Source: Halarchaeum rubridurum (GTDB taxonomy: Archaea > Halobacteriota > Halobacteria > Halobacteriales > Halobacteriaceae). From it: DNA of 64,000 bases. Positions 28,269-33,511 of the stretch are shown one piece after another (within the stretch, counting starts at the first letter, position 1; each line of letters starts with the position of its first letter). The translations under genes were made by a program, and so were the position numbers. The notes under the pieces were generated by a model. The model was not told the origin of the DNA and did no database searches. It saw only the letters and a program-made list of their open reading frames with translations. The stretch lies in contig NZ_BMOO01000005.1 in the NCBI RefSeq assembly GCF_014647115.1, positions 248,001 through 312,000 on the forward strand, read 5' to 3'.

Positions 28269-28352
28269 ACGTTTCAGTGTGGCGCGCCGTGAGGTTAACC
28301 TTACCCCTCGTCCGTCAGAGCGTTCTTGTACGCGGCGCACCGACGGTGTGGC

Positions 28353-28973
28353 GTGCACGCCGCCGTCGTCGTCGCGGGCGGTCACTCGACCCGCTTCGGG
28401 GAGCGCGACAAGGCCACCGCGTCGCTCGCCGGCACGCCGTTGATCCGCCGGGTCGCGGACCGACTCGCCGGCCCCATCGATGCGCTCGTCGTGAACTGCC
28501 GGCCCGCCCAGCGCGAGCGGATCGCGGACGCGCTCGCCGACTACCCGCGACCTGTCACCTACGCCCTCGACGGCCCCGACCGGGCGGACGAGGGACCGCT
28601 CGCCGGGATGTGCGCGGGATTGCGCGCGACGGACGCCGAGCGCGCGTTCGTCGTCGCCTGCGACGTGCCGTTCGTCGACCCCGCGTTCGTCCGCTACCTC
28701 TTCGACCGGGCGGCGGCGCGCGAGGCCGCGGTGCCGTACCGCGAGGGGTACCCCGAAGCGCTCCACGCGGTCTACGCCGTTGAGCCGGCCGTCGGCGCGG
28801 TCGAGCGCGCGCTCGCCGAGGACCGCCGGCGCGCGGACGCGGCGCTCGCCGACCTCGACGTGAGCGCGGTCGGAGAGGCGGCTATCGGGACGCACGCGGC
28901 CCCCGGGACGTTCACGAACCTGAACACGCGGGCGGCGTTCGACGCCGCAGAAGAGCGGTTGGGTCGGCGATAG
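28353..28973 (+). CDS. mobA: Molybdenum cofactor guanylyltransferase
   Basis: A 206-residue nucleotidyltransferase that attaches GMP to molybdopterin. It has the N-terminal AAVVVAGGHSTRFGERDKA (a G-G-x-S-x-R-x-G variant of the usual LAGGxSxRMGxDK), EGPLAGMCAGLRA, and VACDVPFVDP. The GTG at 28353 starts the nucleotide-binding strand. Relevant context: a Moco-dependent oxidoreductase-fold gene lies at 54296, though not nearby. Confidence 0.82.
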   Translation: MHAAVVVAGGHSTRFGERDKATASLAGTPLIRRVADRLAGPIDALVVNCRPAQRERIADALADYPRPVTYALDGPDRADEGPLAGMCAGLRATDAERAFVVACDVPFVDPAFVRYLFDRAAAREAAVPYREGYPEALHAVYAVEPAVGAVERALAEDRRRADAALADLDVSAVGEAAIGTHAAPGTFTNLNTRAAFDAAEERLGRR

Positions 28974-28982
28974 GGCCTCGGT

Positions 28983-29288
28983 CTAGTGGGCGCGCTCCGC
29001 TTCCTCTTCGAGGAGCTCGGAGATGTACTGGTGCTCCCAGCTCTCCCGGTCGACTATCTCGCGGCGACCCCGCCGCGTCAACGAGTAGGCGTTCGTCCGC
29101 TCGTCCTGCTTGCGCTTGTCGAGGAGGCCCTTCTCGCAGAGCGTGTCGAGGTTCGGGTAGAGCCGACCGTGGTTGATGGTCGTCCCGTAGTAGTCCTCGA
29201 GCTCGTCCTTGATGTCGAGCCCGTTGGGCTCGTCCAGCCCGCAGGTAACGAAGAGGAGGTCGCGCTGAAAGCCGGTGAGGTCGTGCAT
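28983..29288 (-). CDS. PadR family transcriptional regulator
   Basis: A 101-residue winged-helix regulator: MHDLTGFQRDLLFVTCGLDEPNGLDIKDELE, then NHGRLYPNLDTLCEKGLLDKR, which is the PadR recognition and wing region, and a short C-terminal helix for dimerisation. The gene next upstream on the same strand is the propeller gene at 29345; regulation of that gene is possible but unsupported. Ligand unknown. Confidence 0.87.
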   Translation of the reverse strand: MHDLTGFQRDLLFVTCGLDEPNGLDIKDELEDYYGTTINHGRLYPNLDTLCEKGLLDKRKQDERTNAYSLTRRGRREIVDRESWEHQYISELLEEEAERAH

Positions 29289-29344: not shown

Positions 29345-30394
29345 TCAGTTGGTGGTCGTGGTGCCCTCGACGATGACGCCGCTGGAGCCGACGGCGACCG
29401 GGGGCGTGTCGCTGAAGCGCGGGAGGGCGACGGCGTTCAGGGCGCTGGACGTGCCGGTCTCGAAGGAGGTCCAGCCGCCGCTGCCCGAGAGCCGGTAGCC
29501 GACACCGGCGGAGCCGACGACGACCTTCGTGCCCGTGTCGGGGTTCCGCGAGATGGAGCGGAACGCCTTGGAGCCGAGCTGGACCGGCGTCCAGCGGTTA
29601 CAGACGCAGTCGCGGCGGAAGAGGCGACCGCCACCACCCGTGATGTAGACGCGCTCGGCGTCGGCCGTCTGATAGGTGAGGATGTCGTAGAACTTCACCT
29701 GGGCGTTCGGAACGCCGATGCGCTCCCACGTGTCGCTCGCGTCCGTCGTCCGGAAGCCGTTGCCGGAGGTGTCGGCCGCGAACCCCTTCGTGAGGTTCTG
29801 CCCCTGGAAGTCGAGGGCACTGATCTTCGACCCGCTGCCGGGCTTGACGAGCTTGTCGAAGACGATACAGCCCTCGTCGTCGGTGTGCGCGTCGTACACC
29901 TCGCCGGACCCGTTCGAGATGTAGACGTTCTCGTTCTCGCGGTTCCCGGTGACGGAGATACCCTCCCACGTCGAGGTGTGCTCGTGGGGTGCGGAGTAGT
30001 CGTACTTCATCCCCTTCTCGACGTCGTACGCACCGAGCGCACCGGAGGAGCCGGCGAACCAGATGCGCTTCCCGTCGTCCGTCACGTCGACGGCCTTCAG
30101 CATGTTCTCGCGGGTCGCCGGGCCGTGCTTGACGACGGCGTTCCACTCGCCGCCCTGTCGCGCGAGCACGGTCCCGCTCTTCCCGACCGCGTGGGGGCCG
30201 GCGCGCGTGTCGACGACACCGTAGAGCGTCTGCGAGATCGGCGACTCGACCTCGCTCCACGCGTCGCTCGTGTCCCCGCTCGCCGCCGATACCCCGTTCG
30301 TGACGAGCGCGCCGCCGCCGACGGCGGCTGCAGCCCCGCCCGCGACTTTCAGGAAGGTCCGTCTACCCGAACCGCCGTCACTGGTCTCTGTCAT
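29345..30394 (-). CDS. Tat-exported beta-propeller protein, paralogue 1
   Basis: A 349-residue exported protein. The Tat signal is SGRRTFLKVAGG followed by a Gly/Ala-rich hydrophobic stretch. The mature part is built of about six or seven propeller-type repeats of the form V-x-x-x-G-x-x-G, for example HAVGKSGTVLARQGGEW, WFAGSSGALGAYDVEKG, VYISNGSGEVYDA and VYITGGGGRLFRRDCVCNRW. The C-x-C motif in RRDCVCNRWTPV is shared with the next gene. Ycf48-like or BNR repeats are the closest known fold. Function is unknown; a surface binding role is inference. Confidence 0.75.
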   Translation of the reverse strand: MTETSDGGSGRRTFLKVAGGAAAAVGGGALVTNGVSAASGDTSDAWSEVESPISQTLYGVVDTRAGPHAVGKSGTVLARQGGEWNAVVKHGPATRENMLKAVDVTDDGKRIWFAGSSGALGAYDVEKGMKYDYSAPHEHTSTWEGISVTGNRENENVYISNGSGEVYDAHTDDEGCIVFDKLVKPGSGSKISALDFQGQNLTKGFAADTSGNGFRTTDASDTWERIGVPNAQVKFYDILTYQTADAERVYITGGGGRLFRRDCVCNRWTPVQLGSKAFRSISRNPDTGTKVVVGSAGVGYRLSGSGGWTSFETGTSSALNAVALPRFSDTPPVAVGSSGVIVEGTTTTN

Positions 30395-30517
30395 CGTTTA
30401 CTCTCAAGGCCGGCCCCTAAAAGGAATTTGTGGCCCGAAATCCAACACAAATGGTCCGCGCGCGGCTACGGGTCGGTCGACGAACGCGAGACGGAGTGGG
30501 AGAACGCGAAACGCGGG

Positions 30518-31492
30518 TCAGACGCGGCGTTCGAGAATCGCGCCGCTGTCGCCGACGACGACATCGGGTTCGTACTCCTCGCCGATGGCGACGCCGTTCA
30601 GGTGGTTGCCGGTCGCCGTCCCGTACAGCGTGTAGCCGGTGTCGGACGGCTCGACGACGTTGCCCGACCCCCCGGCACCGAGCAGTCGGTCGGCCGTGCG
30701 CTCGAACGCCGAGATGGTCACGCTCCCCGCCTTGAACGGCGTCCATCGGCGACACCGACAGTCGAGACGGAAGACGCGCCCGGCACCGCCGGCCACGTAG
30801 ACGTGCCGTGCGCCGGAGGAGACGTCCTTCAGCGGGACCTGGGCGTCCTCGATACCGACCCACTCCCAGGTCGCCCCGCCGTCGGTCGTCCGGTAGACGG
30901 CCGACCCGTTCGTCACCGCGTGCCCCCGCTCGCGCGTGTGGAAGTCCACGGCGGTCACGGTGTCGCTCGCGCCGGTGTCGCGTTTCGTCCACGTCATCCC
31001 CTTCTTGCCGTGGTGACCGACGACGACCGTGCCGCTGCTCGACGCGAGGTAGACGCGTTCGCCGCCGACGCTCCCCGCGACGGCGACGTCCGTGAAGCCG
31101 TTTCCGGCCTCGATGGGCTTCGAGTGGCTCGTGACCTCCCCGGACTCGACGTCGAGCGCCCCGACCGTCCCGGAGGCTCCACAGAACCAGAGGCGGTCGC
31201 CGCCGCGGGTCGTGTCACAGGCCTCGAGGGTCTTGCTCCGCCCCGCGCCCTCGTCCGTGTGAATCGACCACTCGCCGGCGACCCGGCGCAGAACGAGGCC
31301 GCTCGACCCGACGGCGTGCGCCATCCCCGACGTGTGTGTGACGTCGTTGATGGCGTTGCCGGTCGGCGAGCCGACCGCGTTCCACTCGTCGTCGGCCGAC
31401 GCACCCGTCGTTGCCGCGACGCCGAGCGCCGCCGCACCGACGCCGCCCAGCGCGCCCAGTACCCGCCGTCGCGTTAGTGCCGTCCCACCCAT
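30518..31492 (-). CDS. Tat-exported beta-propeller protein, paralogue 2
   Basis: A 324-residue protein with the Tat motif TRRRVLGALGG. Repeats align one by one with the neighbouring paralogue: HAVGSSGLVLRRVAGEW, WFCGASGTVGALDVESG, VYLASSSGTVVVGHHG, and VYVAGGAGRVFRLDCRCRRW followed by TPF. It lacks the first copy's longer loops and has extra cysteines (EACDTT, WFCGAS). Both genes are on the same strand with 123 bases between them, so they arose by duplication but may be transcribed separately. Confidence 0.75.
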   Translation of the reverse strand: MGGTALTRRRVLGALGGVGAAALGVAATTGASADDEWNAVGSPTGNAINDVTHTSGMAHAVGSSGLVLRRVAGEWSIHTDEGAGRSKTLEACDTTRGGDRLWFCGASGTVGALDVESGEVTSHSKPIEAGNGFTDVAVAGSVGGERVYLASSSGTVVVGHHGKKGMTWTKRDTGASDTVTAVDFHTRERGHAVTNGSAVYRTTDGGATWEWVGIEDAQVPLKDVSSGARHVYVAGGAGRVFRLDCRCRRWTPFKAGSVTISAFERTADRLLGAGGSGNVVEPSDTGYTLYGTATGNHLNGVAIGEEYEPDVVVGDSGAILERRV

Positions 31493-31662: not shown

Positions 31663-32829
31663 GTGGTATCACAACTACTCGTCGCGGCCGTCGTTGGCCT
31701 CGGAATCGGTGCCTGCCTCCAGAAGGGCCGATTCTGCTTCGTCAACGCCTTCCGCGACCTCTTCGCGTACAAGGACACCCGCGTCACGAAGGGCGTCATC
31801 GCCGCCGTCCTCGTGACGATGGTGTTCTGGGGCACCGCCTATCAGTTCGGCTACTTCCAGGGCTTCTGGACGCCCGGCTGGGGGCTCACCGGCCTCGTCG
31901 GTGGGTTCGTCTTCGGCATCGGGATGACCTACGCGGGGGCCTGCGCCTCCGGGACGCTCTACCGCGCCGGCGAGGGGTACGTCCAGTACTGGCTCACCCT
32001 CCTGTTCATGGGCGTCGGCTACGTCGCCTTCGTGGTCGCGTTCCCGACGCTCCAGTCCACGTATTTCGCCTCGCTGACGTTCGGCGAGGGGGTCTCGCTG
32101 TTCGAAATCTCGCCCGTCCCGGCCGGCCTGCTCGCCATCGGCGTCGCCGTCGTCGCCACGCTCGTCTACGCGACCGTCCTCGGCCGTCAGTACTCGGGGA
32201 ACGAGCGCGCGACCGCCGCCTCCGCCCGTCCCGCGACCATCGTCGGGACGCCCATCGTCGGCCTCCAGCGCCTCGCCGCCGGGACGCGCGCGTACTTTGC
32301 GGGCGTCCGCCAGGCGTGGGCGAACCCGGTCGCCGCGAGCAAGCGCCCGTGGGACCCCCGGAGCGCCGCGCTCGGCATCTCGGTCTTCGCGCTCATCTGG
32401 TTCACGACCGTCTCCATCGTCGGCGTCACCGGCCCCGAGGCCCGCTGGAGCGGCTACGTCCTCTCGCTCGCCGGCGTCGACGCCGGCTCGTTCACCTACT
32501 GGGGGTCCGTCCTCTTCCGCGGTGCGGGCGTCGGCGTCACGGTCGACATGGTGATGATTGCCTTCCTCGTCCTCGGCTCCGCGCTCGCCGCCTACTGGAG
32601 CGGGGACTTCTCCCTGCGGATGCCGCGCAAGCGCCGCCTCCCGAACGCCGTCCTCGGCGGCTTCGCCATGGGCGCCGGCTCCCGGCTCGCCCCCGGCTGC
32701 AACATCGGGAACATCTACTCCGGGCTCGCGGAGCTCTCCGTCCACTCCTTCATCGCCACCGTCGGCATCGTCGCCGGCGTCTACGTGATGACCCACTGGA
32801 TATACCGCGAGGTCGGCTGCGCCATCTAA
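31663..32829 (+). CDS. YeeE/YedE (TsuA-type) thiosulfate or sulfur-compound transporter
   Basis: A 388-residue membrane protein with about 11 hydrophobic segments. It has the conserved cysteines of YeeE thiosulfate transporters: C18 and C25 (GIGACLQKGRFCF), C94 (TYAGACASG) and a late one in APGCNIGNIYSG. In Spirochaeta YeeE three such cysteines line the thiosulfate path. The next two genes encode TusA and rhodanese proteins, matching the bacterial YeeE-YeeD(TusA) pairing. The start is GTG with MVSQLLVAAVVG leading into the first helix. Confidence 0.87.
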   Translation: MVSQLLVAAVVGLGIGACLQKGRFCFVNAFRDLFAYKDTRVTKGVIAAVLVTMVFWGTAYQFGYFQGFWTPGWGLTGLVGGFVFGIGMTYAGACASGTLYRAGEGYVQYWLTLLFMGVGYVAFVVAFPTLQSTYFASLTFGEGVSLFEISPVPAGLLAIGVAVVATLVYATVLGRQYSGNERATAASARPATIVGTPIVGLQRLAAGTRAYFAGVRQAWANPVAASKRPWDPRSAALGISVFALIWFTTVSIVGVTGPEARWSGYVLSLAGVDAGSFTYWGSVLFRGAGVGVTVDMVMIAFLVLGSALAAYWSGDFSLRMPRKRRLPNAVLGGFAMGAGSRLAPGCNIGNIYSGLAELSVHSFIATVGIVAGVYVMTHWIYREVGCAI

Positions 32830-32873
32830 CGGAACCGTCAGACAGACACCTATCCACCCACTAGAACACATCA

Positions 32874-33167
32874 ATGCCATCCATCGACGACGTCGTCGAC
32901 TCCCCCGACGAACTGGACGACGAGACCGCACAGGAGCTCTACGAGAACGCCGACCGCACCCAGGACATGATGGGCGAGGTCTGCCCGTACCCGCAGGTGG
33001 AGGCGAAGAAGGGCCTCCAGGACCTCGAATCGGGCGACCTCCTCGTCCAGGAGACGGACCACGTCCCCTGCACGGAGAACGTCCCGAAGGCCGTCGGCGA
33101 CGACGCCGAGGCCACCGTCTGGCGTAGCGGCGACGGCGTCTATCGCATCTACCTCCGCAAGAACTGA
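32874..33167 (+). CDS. TusA-family sulfur carrier protein
   Basis: A 97-residue protein with a 30-residue acidic extension, then the TusA core: the active cysteine C37 in GEVCPYPQVEAKK (C-P-x-P motif), a beta-alpha-beta unit and a C-terminal strand (ATVWRSGDGVYRIYLRK). It would carry sulfur as a persulfide. A second cysteine, C66 (DHVPCTENV), lies opposite. The gene follows the YeeE gene by 44 bases and is followed by the rhodanese gene after two bases. Confidence 0.87.
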   Translation: MPSIDDVVDSPDELDDETAQELYENADRTQDMMGEVCPYPQVEAKKGLQDLESGDLLVQETDHVPCTENVPKAVGDDAEATVWRSGDGVYRIYLRKN

Positions 33168-33169
33168 GC

Positions 33170-33511
33170 ATGCCCGCAGAACTCACCCCGACCGAGACCA
33201 GCGAGCGCCTCGACGACGAGGACTTCACGCTCGTCGACATCCGCGACCCCGAGGCCTACGCGGAGGGCCACGTCCCGGGCGCGGAGAACCTCACGCTCGA
33301 CGAGCTGGAGGCGATAGTCGAGGAGCGCGAGTGGAACGACACCGTCGCGTTCCTCTGCTACATCGGCAAGTCCTCCCAGCAGGCCGCGCGCTTCGTCGAG
33401 GAGTACGGCGACGCCGGCGAGGTGTACAGCGTCGCCGGCGGCATGGACGAGTGGGACGGCGACCTCGAAGTCGCGGACGACGTCGACGCGCTCGACGCCG
33501 GAAGCGACTGA
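33170..33511 (+). CDS. Rhodanese-like sulfurtransferase
   Basis: A 113-residue single rhodanese domain. It includes TLVDIRDPEAYAEGHVPGAEN at the start, and the active-site loop with cysteine C63 in LCYIGKSSQQAARF, followed by VAGGMDEWDG. It would accept sulfane sulfur from thiosulfate or a persulfide. Tight spacing to tusA (two bases) shows a shared transcript. The acidic tail is typical of halophiles. Confidence 0.88.
   Translation: MPAELTPTETSERLDDEDFTLVDIRDPEAYAEGHVPGAENLTLDELEAIVEEREWNDTVAFLCYIGKSSQQAARFVEEYGDAGEVYSVAGGMDEWDGDLEVADDVDALDAGSD

Follow-up and report, generated by a model that had tools for sequence, protein, structure and literature searches.

Ycf48 is already known as the guard of a photosystem II metal site. 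Excerpts of one study (PMC10403576) describe a seven-bladed propeller that lies over the future site of the Mn cluster and blocks premature metal binding, and that binds D1 through an arginine patch, seen by cryo-EM, of Arg180, 196, 215, 219, 220 and 237. In Synechocystis, Ycf48 is a lipoprotein, according to a passage of PMC8038367. Also relevant here is PpoB2, the former DUF2182, which an excerpt of PMC2855505 reports to deliver copper to tyrosinase in Marinomonas mediterranea. Literature searches found no paper that joins haloarchaea or archaea to Ycf48, to photosystem II stability, to the BNR repeat plus Tat, or to DUF2182, and a search on PSII_BNR and archaea returned nothing related, judged by title. 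From the literature on haloarchaea, beta-propellers and Tat, the passage retrieved from PMC3404096 concerns a gluconolactonase, and from that on haloarchaeal heme-copper oxidases and copper chaperones, the word "propeller" was not found in the passages of PMC9240420.

The locus described here lies in a window of 64,000 nucleotides (the whole stretch of DNA analysed) from Halarchaeum rubridurum. It holds two genes on the minus strand, P1 (29345..30394, 349 amino acids) and P2 (30518..31492, 324 amino acids), which an initial annotation had called adjacent Tat-signal genes with repeats that align between the two proteins; both parts of that description hold up. The genes are in tandem on the same strand with 123 bp between them, and the proteins align at 37% identity over 301 columns (E 2e-53). 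Each N-terminus has RR and a hydrophobic stretch and closes with an A-x-A-like sequence (GRRTFLK...VSAAS in P1, TRRRVLG...GASAD in P2), which places the putative signal regions at residues 1-39 of P1 (30278..30394, minus strand) and 1-32 of P2 (31397..31492, minus strand). The RR is present in all 16 P1-type and P2-type proteins. The Tat models of Pfam and NCBIfam matched P1 below their cut-offs only, the P1 leader has a weak likeness to a Tat target of the formate-dehydrogenase region (5.8e-4, below cut-off), and a lipobox was not seen in the P1 or P2 sequence.

A PadR-family regulator (28983..29288, minus strand; Pfam PF03551, 2.4e-14) lies 56 bp downstream of P1 and is possibly the third gene of a P2-P1-padR operon. 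This order and strand are repeated in the locus (L041) of Halarchaeum acidiphilum, the closest named relative among the matches, which carries both genes. The PadR neighbour, also reported at the outset, adjoins the pair in four of the seven pair loci (L038, L041, L042 and L043, and not L044, L045 or L058).

Both proteins were modelled with AF2 from a four-sequence alignment, and both models are seven-bladed (P1: pLDDT 82.1, pTM 0.85; P2: pLDDT 85.2, pTM 0.88). Each protein carries two close cysteines, in P1 within R-R-D-C-V-C-N-R-W-T-P (residues 260-270; 29585..29617, minus strand; C-V-C codons 29600-29608) and in P2 within R-L-D-C-R-C-R-R-W-T-P (residues 242-252; 30737..30769, minus strand; C-R-C codons 30752-30760). 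C263 and C265 of P1 (224 and 226 of the mature protein) fall between predicted strands 218-223 and 228-233, and C245 and C247 of P2 (mature 213 and 215) between predicted strands 208-212 and 217-221. In the models, then, the C-x-C of both proteins is at the c-d turn of blade 5, at the tip of a hairpin, which agrees with the expectation that the two motifs share a blade. When the three and four cysteines of the two proteins were placed randomly in 310 columns, two million draws gave a probability of 1e-6 for a C-x-C in shared columns. A third conserved cysteine, Cys176 of P1 (29867..29869, minus strand), lies in the predicted c-d turn of blade 3. Fold searches were made with the P2 model alone. 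Foldseek placed Ycf48 (5oj5) sixth, at TMq 0.77 and 14% identity, with several Ycf48 entries in the first 50; VIA-align ranked WD40 and designed propellers highest (Z 33.9), with Ycf48 absent from its 50 rows. Because the two rankings disagree on Ycf48, they were taken to show a seven-bladed propeller and nothing further.

A profile of 36 family members was searched against the PDB. Ycf48 came first, at 2e-17, and the first six of the 16 matches listed were all Ycf48 or HCF136, down to HCF136 at 3.5e-8, which bears out the Ycf48-type relationship that the initial annotation had suggested. Both proteins score under the cut-off of PF14870, PSII_BNR (22.2 bits for P1 and 23.7 for P2, against 27), and P2 reaches 12.1 bits against the 27 of the BNR/Asp-box model PF02012, where P1 was not listed. 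In the profile alignment with 8am5_S, read by eye, arginines 196, 215, 219 and 220 of Ycf48 align to s, t, s and t, Arg180 aligns to a weakly conserved r, which is Arg in P1 but Ser in P2, and 237 falls outside the alignment, so the patch is lacking in P1/P2 at four of the five aligned positions. Since the patch is mostly missing and the scores fall under the Pfam cut-off, P1 and P2 were not filed as Ycf48. A photosystem II is not expected in a haloarchaeon. By analogy, P1 and P2 may work like Ycf48.

The family is widespread in the order. Of 392 Halobacteriales genomes, 220 contain a match to P1 (E up to 1e-3) and 213 a match to P2 (E up to 1e-20). With the family profile, 15 of 246 genomes of the phylum matched at 1e-15, all of them Halobacteriales, a count to be read with the number of the 246 outside the order unstated. 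Within the GTDB family of the window, 7 of 26 genomes have a P1-type match at 1e-60, each time with the C-x-C. Outside that family, C-x-C P1-type genes were found in G316 and G249, and the 148 genomes of G316's own family gave, at 1e-70, only G316 and one gene without C-x-C. Ten plasmid records contain relatives (best 47.7% identity), nine of them annotated as hypothetical and one as YCF48-related. Single genes can hold several family propeller domains, four in L059 (6933-10931, G206) and three in L175 (7095-10193, G188), and the genome G175 has many family copies, some in tandem groups (L043, L149-L153).

To compare the hairpin across the family, 151 domains were aligned after duplicates and domains covering less than 75% of the profile had been dropped, and the cysteines were checked in fetched members only. 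The C-x-C is present in 9 of 9 P1-type and 6 of 7 P2-type domains, in line with the conservation on which the first proposal depended, and at the same place in 0 of the 135 other family domains; the one P2 that departs, in G175, reads R-H-C and is missing the first cysteine. The wording of the motif fared less well. Of the R-x-D-C-x-C-x-R-W-T-P proposed originally the C-x-C stands, but relatives show [DEN]-C-x-C-x-x-W-T-P, and the arginine before the tryptophan is not conserved. W-T-P as a part of the cysteine motif was rejected, since many members without the two cysteines also end the blade in W-T-P. In the other members the turn is mostly D/N-G-x-x-W or D-[DN]-S-Y-x-x-W.

The hairpin cysteines also divide by compartment, in counts for which signals were assigned by pattern and which represent few independent clades. 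Export-signal domains comprise 15 with C-x-C, 1 with a single cysteine and 62 with none; signal-less domains comprise 0, 20 and 41; and the 12 later domains of multi-propeller genes have none. In 16 of the 20 signal-less members linked to the oxidase cluster described below, the turn reads D-x-x-C-x-N-W, with its single cysteine at the second cysteine position (these 20 exclude a domain that had only PadR nearby and two of lipoprotein type in which the pattern failed to pick up the signal). The signal-less alignment group was selected by a cysteine three before the tryptophan, and its 21 of 21 is by construction. C176 is kept in 8 of 9 P1-type and 0 of 7 P2-type domains, and in the alignment of both types no His or Met conserved in both was found near the C-x-C.

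A further exported group was found with another family copy of the window's own genome (G000:C1:146042) as query. Of the 19 places matched, 8, in 8 of 26 genomes, have C-G-C, and all eight proteins have RR signals (L220, G000:C1:146042-147178; L221-L226; L228). From the alignment, this C-G-C is probably in blade 6, at its a-b turn, which in a propeller is on the same face as the c-d turn. Exported members thus bear a C-x-C at two different turns. No functional neighbours of this group stood out.

The supported tree comprises 69 of the 151 domains, with signal and hairpin columns left out. The seven P2-type rows form a clade (SH-aLRT 99), as do seven of the nine P1-type rows, P1 included (95). 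The near-identical P1-type rows of G129 and G146 join the P1-type clade and the signal-less members at an unresolved fork, and the P1-type label denotes place plus hairpin-free similarity. The P1-type groups with signal-less members (99) and the P2-type with a clade of exported genes (94), which are mostly single per genome among the matches listed. The two types are not sisters in the best tree; a single clade is not rejected (AU p 0.31), so the C-x-C may have arisen once or in parallel. Aminotransferase-like and argS-like clusters flank the genes in G316, G249, G129 and G146, and G316 has TFB-like and oxidoreductase-like clusters in common with relatives of the window, the TFB-like one being present in six of the seven pair loci (flanking gene names were read from sequence). 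These common flanking clusters suggest that these genes descended vertically, with losses.

Other members of the family lie in a recurrent cluster whose Pfam matches are COX1, an ArsP_1 permease with a TRASH-like stretch (23.7 against 27 bits, under the cut-off), HMA, PpoB2, PadR and TrkA_C. On plasmid NZ_CP083664.1 of Haloprofundus salinisoli (L246 1282-10214), one strand carries DUF2182, a propeller, HMA, the permease, a cbb3-type oxidase subunit I, an HTH gene and a propeller, where both propellers are annotated as hypothetical and were recognised by their places. The combination of oxidase subunit I, ArsP with the TRASH-like stretch and propeller, often with PpoB2, HMA and PadR, is also found at L051-L055, L060-L062, L201 and L207. 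Two types of propeller occur in the cluster, a Tat lipoprotein (by pattern) with no hairpin cysteine and a signal-less protein mostly with one. Genes were called by a home-made script, and some strands are mistaken.

The neighbourhood loci were picked around propeller matches, and the count from an oxidase search is less biased: among the matches listed, 21 of the 24 COX1 places at 66% identity or more have a propeller within 10 kb, and the three exceptions (G102:C2, G082:C2 and G074:C2) have neither propeller nor ArsP. As a check, 20 oxidase regions were fetched; 18 were without ArsP or propeller, three of these being the exceptions among the 24, and 2 had both (G175 and G206, the propeller of G206 being known beforehand). 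All 24 fetched loci with COX1 and ArsP have a propeller and 17 have two or more, 22 of the 24 having been fetched because of a propeller and G206 partly so. These loci contain PadR in 18 cases, PpoB2 in 16 and HMA in 14, so copper genes are frequent at the oxidase loci, not constant. Of 80 loci picked around family members, 17 have PadR no more than 5 kb from such a member.

At the level of the family, a link with copper is thus supported by gene neighbourhoods, where other members are grouped with the gene for heme-copper oxidase subunit I and, at most loci, with copper-handling genes. It would extend to the window pair by family only. No oxidase, ArsP, PpoB2 or HMA gene lies within 6 kb of the four family copies of the window's genome, and that genome gave no PpoB2 match. 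PpoB2 was matched in 3 of the 11 genomes searched (G088, G175 and G316), all three being among the 9 that have C-x-C P1-type genes. In two of them, G088 and G316, PpoB2 and the oxidase cluster are on different contigs.

The pair's own neighbourhood has genes for molybdenum, selenium and sulfur cofactors (window 28326-28973 and 31663-33511; L043 3344-6671; L044 9391-16380). MobA-like genes adjoin padR in the window and in H. acidiphilum; MobA-like, YqeC and aldehyde ferredoxin oxidoreductase genes are near the pair in G175, and a rhodanese-lactamase gene, YqeC and formate dehydrogenase alpha in G123. The window also has a divergent YedE-type gene, whose best match is selenium YedE/FdhT (2.2e-44, below cut-off); TusA and rhodanese genes come after it. 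Because four of the seven pair loci have such Mo/Se cofactor genes, a molybdopterin enzyme is a possible client of the pair. Among the minority of neighbours scanned there, Mo/Se-type genes were not recognised at L042, L045 or L058, nor beside the unpaired P1-type genes of G129 and G146 (L049, L050).

We tentatively propose, as a reading somewhat short of even odds, that P1 and P2 are exported Ycf48-like holding or assembly factors for a metal enzyme and that their C-x-C is a working dithiol. Like Ycf48, each protein would dock on a metal enzyme outside the cytoplasm that is still immature, and stay there until the cofactor is in place. The C-x-C on the hairpin of blade 5 would be a surface dithiol that carries or shields a soft metal, for example Cu(I), or that makes and breaks a disulfide with the client. 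The client might be a copper enzyme, by family context, or a molybdopterin enzyme, by local context. Client, docking and C-x-C chemistry are what we infer here; conservation of the motif, its position in the predicted fold, the Tat-type signals, the relationship to Ycf48 and the link of other members to heme-copper oxidase are observed. We counted in favour the Ycf48/HCF136 profile ranking, the C-x-C in 15 of 16 domains against 0 of 135, the compartment split of the hairpin cysteines, the oxidase-propeller linkage, copper transfer by PpoB2 and the separate exported C-G-C. Counted on the other side were the position of the pair outside the oxidase cluster, PpoB2 unmatched in 6 of the 9 genomes, cluster members without C-x-C, the missing arginine patch and the lack of a conserved His or Met nearby.

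Nearly as likely, and ranked just below the holding or assembly role, is that the C-x-C is a structural disulfide stapling an exposed hairpin, in which case the propellers would be ordinary exported modules for scaffolding or adhesion. The predicted place at a hairpin tip would suit a staple, as would the shorter D/N-G-x-x-W turn that many members have there, and the two types share no other conserved metal ligand nearby; the confinement of the C-x-C to export-signal proteins (15 of 15) is expected where disulfides form. Yet C-x-C disulfides are strained and rare, C176, kept in most of the P1-type, is without an evident partner, and a local disulfide leaves unexplained why 20 signal-less domains keep a single cysteine at the second position. 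The hairpins could instead join P1 and P2 in a heterodimer, via a four-thiolate metal site or disulfides. Tandem genes that both have the C-x-C at the same turn, as in six of the seven pair loci, and types that are not sisters in the best tree, even if one clade is not rejected, would fit such a dimer. We consider it improbable, the least probable of the readings weighed here, because G129 and G146 keep the C-x-C in their P1-type protein without a C-x-C P2; the P2 of G175, without its first cysteine, speaks against it too.

A role in molybdopterin or selenium/sulfur cofactor enzymes of the formate dehydrogenase type overlaps the holding or assembly role and differs from it in the client. The pair would act as a holding factor, or would supply a thiol for sulfur transfer together with YedE, TusA and rhodanese. 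The neighbouring MobA-like, YqeC, aldehyde ferredoxin oxidoreductase and formate dehydrogenase alpha genes point in this direction, as do the window's YedE, TusA and rhodanese and the weak likeness of the P1 leader. Against this, the four pair loci with such a context represent three genera of one family, and clustering found no homologue in the remaining 79 loci for the YedE, TusA and rhodanese of the window; we regard this version as unlikely. Equally doubtful, in our judgement, is a broader extension of the holding or assembly proposal, in which haloarchaea would metallate a heme-copper oxidase with two Ycf48-type propellers, a lipoprotein on the outer side and a cytoplasmic protein on the inner, together with PpoB2, HMA and the TRASH-like permease, all from one operon, and the C-x-C pair would be an exported branch carrying metal to other cell-surface enzymes.

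Compared with known systems, P1 and P2 resemble Ycf48 and HCF136 as exported, predicted seven-bladed propellers whose family finds these proteins as its top profile matches among solved structures; they differ in scoring below the Pfam cut-off, in lacking the arginine patch at four of five aligned positions and in showing no lipobox. Beta-prop_HVO_0234 (PF23366) is matched by 16 of the 36 family members scanned at 0.01, whereas P1 and P2 were not listed at E up to 1. The propellers of the oxidase cluster belong to the same family and often have PadR near them, but the cluster types are without the C-x-C that gives the exported branch a conserved dithiol. A haloarchaeal family of the same fold as Ycf48, beside a heme-copper oxidase and often beside copper chaperones, suggests that the assembly of metalloenzymes relies on propeller guards more widely.
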